A stretch of 64,000 nucleotides of DNA from Streptomyces populi (GTDB lineage: Bacteria > Actinomycetota > Actinomycetes > Streptomycetales > Streptomycetaceae), in the NCBI RefSeq assembly GCF_002911015.1, contig NZ_KZ626846.1:62001-126000 (forward strand), read 5' to 3'. Positions 61,399 through 64,000 of this stretch are shown in pieces (within the stretch, counting starts at the first letter, position 1; each line of letters opens with the position of its first letter). The notes below the pieces were generated by a model that was given only the letters and a program-made list of their open reading frames with translations, did not search any database and was not told the origin of the DNA. A program made the translations under genes and the position numbers.

Positions 61399-62208
61399 AT
61401 GGCCGCTCCGACTGCATATTCACTCATCGCCACTGACCTGGACGGAACGCTGCTGCGCGGCGACGACACGCTCTCCGACCGGACACGCGCCGCGTTGGCG
61501 AAGGTGACCGGGGCGGGCGCCCGGCATCTCGTGGTCACGGGCCGCCCCGCACCGCGCGTGCGACCGCTTCTCGACGAACTCGGCGGTGAGGGACTGGCGG
61601 TGTGCGGGCAGGGGGCGCAGCTGTACGACGCCGGCGCGGACCGGATGCTGTGGTCGGTGACCCTGGACAGGGAACTGGCGGAGACGGCGCTCGGCAAGAT
61701 CGAGGCGGAGGTCGGGCTGCTGTACGCGGCGGTCGACCAGGACGGAGTGGACGGGCTCACGCTCATCGAACCGGGGTACGTGATGCCGCATCCCACGCTG
61801 CCGGCGGTGCGGGTGCCGCGCCGGGACGACCTCTGGGCGGAGCCGATCAGCAAGGTGTTGCTCCGTCACCCGTCGCTGTCCGACGACGAGTTGGCGGCCA
61901 CGGCACGGGGAGTGGTCGGTTCGCTGGCGACGGTCACCATGTCCGGGCCCGGCACCGTCGAACTCCAGCCATGCGGGGTGACCAAGGCGACGGGCCTCGC
62001 TCTCGCCGCGGCGCACCTCGGGCTCACCCCCTGCGCGACGCTCGCCTTCGGCGACATGCCCAACGACATCCCGATGTTCGACTGGGCCGCCCGGGGCGTG
62101 GCCATGGCCAACGCCCACCCGGAGCTGAAGGCGGTGGCCGACGAGGTCACCCTGTCGAACGAGGACGACGGCATCGCGGTGGTCCTGGAGCGCGTCTTCG
62201 GCTTCTAG
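61399..62208 (+). CDS. Cof-type HAD hydrolase
   Basis: A 269-residue phosphatase of the HAD superfamily, subclass IIB (Cof type). Motif I is IATDLDGTLLRGDD (nucleophile Asp), motif II is 'LVVTGRPAPRV', motif III Lys is in 'ISKVLLRHP' or 'CGVTKATGL', and motif IV is 'LAFGDMPNDIPMFDWA'. The cap domain lies between motifs II and III. Substrates of the family are sugar phosphates and related compounds; none can be named. ATG 61399 places the nucleophile about 11 residues in, as is normal; an ATG at 61369 would add ten residues. Confidence 0.9.
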   Translation: MAAPTAYSLIATDLDGTLLRGDDTLSDRTRAALAKVTGAGARHLVVTGRPAPRVRPLLDELGGEGLAVCGQGAQLYDAGADRMLWSVTLDRELAETALGKIEAEVGLLYAAVDQDGVDGLTLIEPGYVMPHPTLPAVRVPRRDDLWAEPISKVLLRHPSLSDDELAATARGVVGSLATVTMSGPGTVELQPCGVTKATGLALAAAHLGLTPCATLAFGDMPNDIPMFDWAARGVAMANAHPELKAVADEVTLSNEDDGIAVVLERVFGF

Positions 62209-62230
62209 CCGCGTCGACGCACCCGCTGAC

Positions 62231-62270
62231 GCACCCGCCGACGGGCCCGGAGGGCGCCGTCGGCGGGTGC
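62231..62270. terminator. Bidirectional terminator after the HAD and LysM genes
   Basis: GCACCCGCCGACGG at 62231-62244 pairs perfectly with CCGTCGGCGGGTGC at 62257-62270 (14 bases), with a 12-base loop that can itself fold. It lies between two convergent genes. This is one of the strongest hairpins in the window. Confidence 0.85.
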
Positions 62271-62296
62271 GGTGAAGTCGGGGGTGCGGGGTGCGA

Positions 62297-63067
62297 TCAG
62301 TAGGCGCCGTTGACGTTGTCGATGGAGCCGTACTTGTCGGCCGCGTAGTTGCAGGCGGCGGTGATGTTCGCGACCGGGTCGTAGATGTTCGTCGACGTGC
62401 CGGCGACGTGGTACGCCTGGAACGTGGGGTCGATCACCTGGAGCAGACCCTTGGAGGGGATGCCGGCGGCGGCGTTGGAGTCCCAGTTGTTGATGGCGTT
62501 GGGGTTGCCGGAGGACTCACGCATCACGTTGCGGTGGATGCCGTCGTAGCTGCCCGGGATGCCGGCCTTGGCCATGACGTCGAGGGATTCCTTGATCCAG
62601 CCGTCGAGGTTGTTGGCGTACGTCTTGGCGGAGGCCTGGGTGACGGTGGTCACCTTGGACTTGGCGACGGCGGCGGTCGCGTTCGCCGTGGTGCTGACGG
62701 TCTTCGACTTCAGCGTCTTCGTGCCCACGGTCAGCTTCAGGCCCGGACGGAGCACGGAGGGGTTGTCGCCGATGACGGCGCGGTTCGCCGCGTACAGCTT
62801 CTTCCAGCCACCGCTCTTGGGGTACTTCTGCGCGACCTTGGAGAGGGTGTCGCCCTTGACCACCTTGTAGGTGATGAGCTGCACGTTGGGCACCACCGCG
62901 GTGTGGGCGGTCTTCGCGACCTGGGGGGCCTGCGCCGGGGTGGCGGCGTTGGCGCCGGTCGCGCTCACGAGCGGGAGGGCGAGAGCGATACCGCCGGTTC
63001 CGGCGGCGATCATGCCCCGGGTGATGACGTTGGACTTCATGCGGCGGTGCTTGCCTCGTGCGAGCAT
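62297..63067 (-). CDS. Secreted LysM and transglycosylase (SLT-type) cell-wall hydrolase
   Basis: A 256-residue exported protein. A twin-Arg-like basic start (MLARGKHRRMKSN) and hydrophobic segment end in ANAATPAQ, the likely cleavage site. A LysM domain at about 66-115 (YKVVKGDTLSKVAQKYPKSG) binds peptidoglycan. The C-terminal domain (about 150-256) is a lytic transglycosylase SLT-like domain with the probable catalytic Glu184 in 'NVMRESSGNPNAINNWDSN', then 'SKGLLQVIDPTFQAYH'. Such enzymes cut glycan strands during growth and spore germination. ATG 63067 has GAGAGGAAATT upstream. Expression is controlled by the c-di-AMP riboswitch in its leader. Confidence 0.92.
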   Translation of the reverse strand: MLARGKHRRMKSNVITRGMIAAGTGGIALALPLVSATGANAATPAQAPQVAKTAHTAVVPNVQLITYKVVKGDTLSKVAQKYPKSGGWKKLYAANRAVIGDNPSVLRPGLKLTVGTKTLKSKTVSTTANATAAVAKSKVTTVTQASAKTYANNLDGWIKESLDVMAKAGIPGSYDGIHRNVMRESSGNPNAINNWDSNAAAGIPSKGLLQVIDPTFQAYHVAGTSTNIYDPVANITAACNYAADKYGSIDNVNGAY

Positions 63068-63085
63068 GGCGAATTTCCTCTCCGA

Positions 63086-63262
63086 CGCCTGCGAGGTGAG
63101 CTGTCGGGTTCGGGCGGGAGATGCCCGGCCGTGCTGTGGGCACGGCTTCACCCCTAGCCGGTCCGGTGCGTCCGGATCGGCGGCTTACCTGTGGTTCCCC
63201 CGCTCCTGCCGTGCGTGGGTCGATGGGTTACCGGGCGGCGGCAGGATTCGGCGATCCGCCCG
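63086..63262 (-). ncRNA. c-di-AMP riboswitch (ydaO/yuaA type)
   Basis: Reading on the minus strand, the leader contains the conserved blocks of the ydaO family: GATCGCCGAATCC at the start, 'GCGGGGGAACCAC', 'TAGGGGTGAAGCCG', then CCCGAACCCGACAGCTCACCTCGCAGG at the end (in two parts). The order and spacing match actinobacterial ydaO elements, which bind cyclic di-AMP and turn off cell-wall hydrolase genes such as rpfA in Streptomyces. It lies 18 bases upstream of the LysM-transglycosylase ATG, within a leader of about 200 bases. Confidence 0.92.
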
Positions 63263-63273
63263 GGGTCGACCAG

Positions 63274-63303
63274 AACGTATGCGAGAGCACATGTCCGAAA
63301 CAA
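63274..63303 (-). promoter_or_regulatory. Promoter of the riboswitch-controlled hydrolase gene
   Basis: On the minus strand TTGTTT (plus-strand 63298-63303) is separated by 18 bases from TACGTT (plus-strand 63274-63279). The start point would be near 63267, just ahead of the riboswitch, so the whole element would be transcribed. The -35 and -10 fit the housekeeping consensus moderately. Confidence 0.55.
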
Positions 63304-64000
63304 GACGAGATTTGACCGCGAAGATCGCTTTGGCCTGGTTGATGAGGGGGTAAAAAGTCCGATTGTGCCGGAATCGGATCCTCAACTTGCCTTTGGCAAA
63401 TGGGTTGGTCGAGTGGGGGCGTGTGGCGGGGGCCCGATTCACCGGTGACCCAATTCACGAGACCAAAGGGCATCAAGTCGGCATGGCGGGTAATTCGGGC
63501 ATCTTGCTCGTGGTGGCGGCGGTCGCCGGACCCTCCCGAGGGCGCCGAGCGGCCCTTCGTGCGGCGGGAATTGTGGTGCGGGACACGTCGGAGAGTGCGG
63601 CCCGGTGGCTCGCTCTCCGGCCACCGGGCCGCGTCGATGTGCGGCCGGTTCTCCCACCTCGGATGTCGTGCGGGACCGGCCTGGACGCGAGTCGGGTCCA
63701 GGCGGTCGCAAGGCCAAGTGCGGCCCGCTTGAACGGCGTTCGGCGTTCGGTGTGCGCGCGTCGCGACGGCGCCCGATGCGCACGCCATGCACCGGCGCCC
63801 GGCGTGCGCGCCATGCGTCGGTGCTCGGCGTGCGCGCCATGCGTCGGTGCTCGGCGTACGCGTGTTGTGCCGGTGCGGGCCAGGGCGCGCGGAGGCCGCA
63901 GGGGGTGAACTCCCTTGCTTGCGCGCTCTGTCAGCCGTCCGTGCAAGGGATTCTCTTCCCCCTGGGGATGGGGGCGGCCTCGACGCGGTCCTTGTGGAGG
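63304..64000. other. Right end of the window, no gene supported
   Basis: No convincing gene was found. Open frames are present on both strands, but they are repeats or GC-rich chance frames. It contains a small perfect inverted repeat TTGCCTTTGGCAA at 63387-63399, a region of lower G/C before 63490, and the 26-base repeats at 63784-63861. Confidence 0.45.
63784..63861. repeat. 26-bp tandem repeat, three copies
   Basis: Three adjacent units of the pattern GCCATGCGTCGGTGCTCGGCGTGCGC; units two and three differ by one base, and unit one differs from them at four. A decayed fourth unit may follow. The repeat contains GCGTGCGC-like inverted sequence. It is not part of a supported gene. Confidence 0.8.

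Follow-up and report, generated by a model that had tools for sequence, protein, structure and literature searches.

The leader and its gene

On the (-) strand of the window, by which we mean the whole 64-kb stretch of DNA analysed, a gene for a 256-aa protein is preceded by a c-di-AMP aptamer and a candidate promoter (Table 1). Pfam profiles placed a LysM domain at residues 67-114 (PF01476, 29.2 bits against a cut-off of 20.9) and an SLT domain at residues 182-253 (PF01464, 34.9 bits against 21.3). Both scores exceed the curated cut-offs, and the earlier note was right to call this a LysM-transglycosylase transcript. The enzyme is probably secreted. Identification of the gene as RpfA was considered and rejected, with a score of 29.3 for the NCBIfam Rpf equivalog NF046106 against a cut-off of 180. 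A paralogue bearing an Rpf-type domain (L005, PF06737) also stayed below that cut-off, at 127.5.

Table 1. Positions of the features of the leader and its gene in the window
Feature	Position	Strand	Remark
-35 box TTGTTT	63298..63303	(-)	sequence; same pattern in orthologue leaders
-10 box TACGTT	63274..63279	(-)	sequence; same pattern in orthologue leaders
P0 5′ arm CCGGGCGG	63256..63263	(-)	pairs with 63238-63231
P1 5′ strand CGCC	63250..63253	(-)	pairs with 63089-63086
P2 5′ arm CCTGCCG	63239..63245	(-)	pairs with 63211-63205
P0 3′ arm CCGCCCGG	63231..63238	(-)	abuts P2 5′ arm, in P2 loop
c-di-AMP aptamer RF00379, as reported by cmscan	63071..63231	(-)	59.9 bits; 5′ end too short
P2 3′ arm CGGCAGG	63205..63211	(-)	leader alignment and sequence
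Conserved GCGGGG helix	63198..63203	(-)	partner CCTCGC 63096-63091; 100% of cells paired in the 33-leader alignment
Hairpin GGGC-AUCUCCC-GCCC	63112..63126	(-)	loop holds the anti-Shine-Dalgarno UCUCC, 63121-63117
Conserved GAACCCGACAGC block	63100..63111	(-)	cmscan alignment and orthologue leaders
P1 3′ strand GGCG	63086..63089	(-)	leader alignment and sequence
Shine-Dalgarno GGAGAGG, also candidate pseudoknot 3′ strand	63077..63083	(-)	sequence and loop:tail tests
LysM and SLT transglycosylase gene, 256 aa	62297..63067	(-)	ATG 63067-63065

When the whole window was searched with cmscan, RF00379 (ydaO/c-di-AMP) was the only Rfam match above its cut-off, with 59.9 bits against a gathering score of 38 (E 2.2e-11, model positions 1-134). 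The covariance-model search proposed in the earlier note thus upheld its claim of a c-di-AMP riboswitch. A chance match was considered as the source of the element and rejected. The note had also stated that all main ydaO blocks are present. The core blocks GGGGGA.CC, GGGGUGAA and GAACCCG.CAGCU.ACC were indeed found in the alignments together with P1, although one consensus A is replaced by C (CAGCUCACC versus the consensus CAGCUAACC).

In the Rfam alignment of this leader, P1 and P2 both contain pairs flagged as non-standard. Judged by the orthologue leaders, Rfam sets the 5′ end too far in and misplaces both helices. CGCC, with GGCG as its partner, agrees with the orthologues as the P1 5′ strand and lies in a conserved CGCCGAAUCC at 63253-63244. 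Thirty-three aligned leaders support this arrangement: 96.6% of the cells pair, and the covariation score is 0.129 versus 0.081 after shuffling (0/500 as high), with slides reaching at most 0.062. CGCC:GGCG is preserved throughout, except for one pair in one leader. The earlier note gave the interval 63086-63303. One end of it coincides with the last base of the P1 3′ strand and the other with the opening base of the -35 box, so it comprises promoter and aptamer.

The candidate promoter has the form TTGTTT-N18-TACGTT (63303-63274). With the usual spacing of about 7 nt from the -10 box, the predicted transcription start falls near 63267, which would leave about 14 nt to P1 and about 4 nt to P0, an additional helix described below. 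A start point a few bases upstream of the element, as had been proposed, is therefore borne out as a prediction. The pattern TTGTNN-N16-20-TANNNT was found in 37 of the 43 orthologue leaders with a P2 call, and in all 37 it ended 26-27 nt before the P2 arm. The six without it were L035 and the divergent orthologues L044, L047, L050, L056 and L061; these five retain the aptamer and, by eye, the P0 pairing. A generic sigma-70 scan of 62200-64000 gave no promoter, and the boxes described here fall outside the rule of that scan. A terminator scan of the same stretch found a terminator-like hairpin with a T run shortly before the promoter (63378-63358, (-) strand), one such site against 1.4 expected by chance.

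Orthologues were taken from the best 80 of a larger number of loci in a scan of named genomes. Among these 80, the closest are from Streptomyces, with up to 91% identity. The protein match starts within 5 residues of the N-terminus at 47 loci; 32 with inner or C-terminal matches were left unscored. The 3′ core of the aptamer and the Shine-Dalgarno (SD) sequence lie upstream of 45 of the 47. The Actinacidiphila acididurans orthologue (L083) has no element in the 110 nt upstream. At L040 (Streptomyces sp. H27-C3), the aptamer core is decayed and the P1 3′ strand lost, with an SD-like GAGG retained before 1501; the switch may have been lost here naturally. L084 has the leader though its protein match spans the C-terminus only. 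The 47 orthologue leaders referred to below are the 45 with a core plus L040 and L084. The leaders of L019 and L022 have their 5′ half cut off or masked. Near 1321 of L022 the aptamer 3′ end is duplicated beside a run of N, perhaps an assembly artefact.

The host genome (9.59 Mb) contains seven RF00379 elements, all above the cut-off, among which that of the window ranks fourth. Of the genes that follow these elements, six code for wall-acting proteins by Pfam: the SLT and LysM enzyme of the window, three M23 peptidases, an Rpf-type transglycosylase with LysM and an NlpC/P60 protein. The gene behind the seventh (L003), which is cut at the end of its locus, had no Pfam match in 497 aa. The riboswitch-controlled proteins of L002, L004 (the window), L005 and L006 have in common the motif GKHRR, located shortly after the start codon. 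The genome has one DAC-domain (c-di-AMP synthase) gene. All 41 sampled genomes of the genus, this one included, have RF00379 matches, 3 to 8 each. Families f64 and f70 had no such match in the six genomes listed for each.

The riboswitch itself is thus an ordinary feature of the genus, and such leaders on Streptomyces wall hydrolases have already been published. Here and below, statements on cited papers refer to the parts of those papers that were covered. S. coelicolor has seven ydaO leaders (rpfA and six others) and S. venezuelae six (PMC10117811). Five of the six in S. lividans were found to be transcribed, and blocking of the ribosome-binding site (RBS) was assumed for them (PMC8079986). 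The S. lividans leaders include those of SLIV_15360, a 'Transglycosylase', and SLIV_22200, which is LysM/lysozyme-like (PMC8079986). The leader studied here shares riboswitch family, kind of target gene and genus with these, and its likeness to SLIV_15360 is one of description only.

A probable additional helix at the 5′ end

The helix that we call P0 joins the predicted first bases of the transcript to the start of the long P2 loop. It encloses the 5′ strands of P1 and P2, and therefore crosses both helices. The consensus line of RF00379 in Rfam contains no such helix. Two overlapping alignments were made from 58 distinct segments, one with 35 (the window, two paralogues and 32 orthologues) and the other with 40 picked for diversity. 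With 35 segments, 88.9% of the P0 cells pair and 20 cells are changed on both sides versus 5.3 after shuffling; the covariation score is 0.254 versus 0.132 (0/500), and slides reach at most 0.104. With 40 segments, the corresponding values are 74.4%, 54 cells versus 23.3 (0/500) and 0.455 versus 0.197 (0/500), with slides at most 0.250. By eye, at least L044, L050, L056 and L061 in alignments A1-A3, and L006 in A3, are shifted against the other rows, so that the P0 counts come out lower.

Some other measures were not distinctive. All eight P0 pairs change on both sides among the 40 segments, as they also do in 121 of 500 shuffles. In that alignment the +1 slide exceeds P0 in pair types (29 versus 25), and in the 35-segment alignment it does so in pairs changed on both sides (6 versus 5). 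It is in the cell counts and the covariation scores, as computed from these alignments, that the P0 signal stands out.

A second kind of comparison used 191 leaders, drawn from part of the matches listed: seven from the host genome, 47 from orthologues, 89 from other members of the genus and 48 from other Actinomycetota. P2 was called in 119 of them and is long in 97, of which 89 are unique. In these 89, matched arms scored 18.95 versus 14.94 for mismatched ones (0/5000 as high, in a permutation that ignores kinship), and 87 of the 89 form P0 with at least 5 bp. An earlier pass with 74 leaders gave a concordant result, and its controls were flat (4050/5000 and 2515/5000). That pass left out L007, L223 and L153, whose P2 calls were wrong on inspection; P2 was re-called for all leaders in the later one, where some positions, such as that of L155, look off by eye.

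As a hold-out, 60 of the matches listed from other genera of the class were chosen before their sequences were seen. P2 was called in 23 of the 60 and was long in every case. Their matched score was 20.26 versus 13.19 (0/5000, again with kinship ignored by the permutation), and P0 reached at least 6 bp in 22 of the 23, compared with 6 of 23 for a control stretch (2361/5000). Counts at a threshold of 4 bp were uninformative, as controls reached 69/71 and 21/23.

Leaders without a P2 call, 72 of the 191 and 37 of the 60, stand outside the P0 counts; by eye, many have a short P2. P0 is plain by eye in some of the uncalled leaders (L276, L289), which are likewise absent from the counts. Short-P2 leaders gave no P0 signal in the first pass (4920/5000) and a weak one when 21 unique leaders were re-tested (60/5000). 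As P0 is not clear in them, we claim it for long-P2 leaders only. Fourteen of the 15 long-P2 leaders from outside the genus in the phylum sample belong to the class of the window, and the remaining one, L150, pairs weakly. One core base tracks the long P2: position 14 of the anchor GAACCCGACAGCTAACC is C in 68 of 74 long-P2 leaders and A in 32 of 34 short-P2 leaders, as tallied with the earlier P2 calls minus L007, L223 and L153 and with 83 leaders without a P2 call unclassed.

These comparisons of sequences suggest that P0 is an extra conserved RNA helix absent from the standard family model. We regard it as provisionally new in long-P2 leaders. The parts covered of the papers on Streptomyces leaders and on nlpC (PMC8079986, PMC10117811, PMC9960051) describe no P0-like helix. 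A covariation survey, in its main text, places RF00379 under longer known helices and not under new pseudoknots (PMC7657543). PMC13273304 makes no mention of the class, and on the point of P0 the covered part of PMC6993869 contributes statistics only. A literature search by title and opening of the abstract, with the original ydaO and crystal-structure papers outside its scope, yielded no P0 paper among the matches listed.

On paper, P0 and P2 can form together as an H-type pseudoknot with P1 in the connecting loop. In the best-scoring P0 helix, no nucleotide separates P2 from the P0 3′ arm in 38 of 74 leaders, and 4 nt lie between the P0 5′ arm and CCGAA in 41 of 74. In most of the aligned orthologues, by eye, an A/C-rich loop leads to the P2 3′ arm. 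Loops of this kind occur in H-type pseudoknots. The predicted minimum free energy fold of the leader does not display the aptamer with P0, and the energy model cannot represent pseudoknots.

P0 might instead be a competing 5′ hairpin that forms first, with strands of P1 and P2 in its loop, and that would have to open before the ligand binds, a reading compatible with translational control. P0 would be completed first during transcription, and its predicted energy alone is -15.6 kcal/mol against -10.2 kcal/mol for P2 alone; therefore, competition during transcription stays possible. However, the recurrent spacing of the arms is what a stacked H-type pseudoknot needs and a competitor does not. 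We consider the competing hairpin doubtful, and we infer that P0 is a scaffold that forms together with the aptamer.

Complementarity between the aptamer loop and the Shine-Dalgarno sequence

The loop upstream of GAACCCG is complementary to the SD strand (UCUCC:GGAGA), and the SD lies 9 nt before the ATG. As far as sequences can tell, this is the known loop:tail pseudoknot of the RF00379 family laid on the ribosome site. We equate the two because the loop and tail of the crystallised 108-nt ydaO sequence are likewise complementary by eye (PMC5393176). In 46 of the 47 orthologue leaders, GGAGAGG is followed by 8-10 nt and ATG. The helix between the loop and the 3′ tail has 94.5% of its cells paired in the 33-leader alignment. 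The paralogue L007 has CUUCG:CGAAG as its pair.

Among the 121 unique of the 191 leaders, matched loops and tails scored a mean of 14.13 versus 10.55 for mismatched ones (0/5000 as high), whereas a control stretch further downstream gave 554/5000; the permutation ignores kinship. The separate 60 leaders gave 13.03 versus 11.82 (4/5000, under the same permutation), with 423/5000 for the control. In that set the pairing reached at least 6 bp in 29 of 57 unique leaders, compared with 10 of 59 for the control. Control stretches also reached at least 4 bp in 129/151 and 56/59, so counts at that threshold are uninformative, and we therefore relied on matched versus mismatched scores and on the 6-bp threshold.

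Within the orthologues of the window gene alone, no loop:SD covariation was detected (the matched score was reached by 1959 of the 2000 mismatched sets), because both strands are nearly fixed. No loop:SD pair in the 33-leader alignment is changed on both sides. The SD is also constrained by the ribosome regardless of any loop pairing.

Proposed control of the transglycosylase by c-di-AMP

The ATG lies only 18 nt from P1, and the terminator scan found no terminator-like site between them or in the gene down to 62200. The Bacillus-type arrangement, with an intrinsic terminator between aptamer and gene, is thus not what was found here. With so little room and no such site, hiding of the SD is the simplest mode, and the layout of the leader fits a translational riboswitch. 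It seems likely that the riboswitch takes up almost all of the 5′ leader in the LysM-transglycosylase mRNA and switches translation off at high c-di-AMP. Transcription would begin only a few bases upstream of the element. At the 5′ end, the pseudoknot of P0 (leader with P2 loop) and P2 would be able to form first, with the P1 5′ strand in the connecting loop. Binding of c-di-AMP would close P1, and the loop UCUCC would pair with GGAGA of the SD. Ribosomes could then not start, and less of the wall-cutting enzyme would be made. At low c-di-AMP the SD strand would be free. The c-di-AMP level in the cell would thereby be linked to expression of the transglycosylase.

The closest parallel is nlpC of Corynebacterium glutamicum, a translational c-di-AMP riboswitch for which a CTCC:GGAG pseudoknot with the RBS was suggested by its authors for that one RNA (PMC9960051). 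The SD-pairing layout is alike in both, with translational repression reported for nlpC and predicted for the window. Unlike that single RNA, the pairing described here was compared over 191 leaders and lies in the leader of an SLT enzyme. A review also lists ydaO among the classes that hide the RBS (PMC10907184).

We rank transcription attenuation second to translational OFF control. By this account, polymerase would stop in or just after the aptamer, as for rpfA of S. coelicolor, and the SD pairing would be part of the aptamer fold only. Premature termination was reported for that rpfA in vitro with c-di-AMP (St-Onge & Elliot 2017, as cited in PMC10117811 and PMC9960051), and the rpfA transcript was five-fold higher in a disA mutant of S. 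venezuelae (PMC10117811). The Bacillus prototype has a terminator (PMC9960051), and an RNA-seq data-mining paper reports termination at some ydaO loci, with S. coelicolor among its data sets and the organism unspecified. Against this stand the absence of a terminator-like hairpin from P1 to the ATG and in the gene to 62200, the SD itself being one of the pairing strands, and C. glutamicum nlpC, whose transcript was unchanged but whose protein was reduced (PMC9960051). Attenuation is therefore unlikely in our judgement. The earlier note had expected control as known for rpfA; in detail this did not hold, since the gene is not rpfA and its layout points to translation, whereas the rpfA report concerns termination.

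Two further readings were considered. The inverted repeat of P0 could be a DNA operator for a protein, as it sits just downstream of the promoter. Cell-wall hydrolase genes are often under transcriptional regulators. Conservation of the sequence would be expected of a shared operator, whereas P0 varies in sequence with its complementarity retained, also outside the genus, and we reject the operator as highly improbable. The idea of a degenerate relic, prompted by a score only fourth of seven in the genome, has least in its favour and is likewise rejected: the misplacement of P1 and P2 by Rfam costs a long-P2 leader score, the 3′ core and the helices are conserved among orthologues, and the truly decayed case, L040, looks different.

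The leader shares with ydaO/yuaA RF00379 the conserved blocks, P1, P2, the GCGGGG helix, a GGG:CCC helix and the pseudoknot between loop and 3′ tail. It differs in its long P2 with P0, in the SD serving as a pseudoknot strand, in having no terminator-like site and in the C noted above. Reports on rpfA speak for control of transcription, and those on nlpC, with the assumption made for S. lividans, for control of translation. The layout with the SD in the knot makes a clear prediction, open to test both for this enzyme and for its paralogues. Binding constructs trimmed at the Rfam boundary would lose P0. P0 is also a new handle on the class, as the crystallised ydaO sequence has, by eye, no long P2 (PMC5393176) and alignment of the leader to the family model goes wrong in its 5′ part. 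We give about an even chance to the broader view that Actinomycetes use an architecturally distinct class of c-di-AMP riboswitches: the mRNA would be knotted into the P2 loop by its 5′ end, the leader clamped at both ends with the SD as a strand of the second knot, and P0 needed either for sensing the ligand or for timing the switch.
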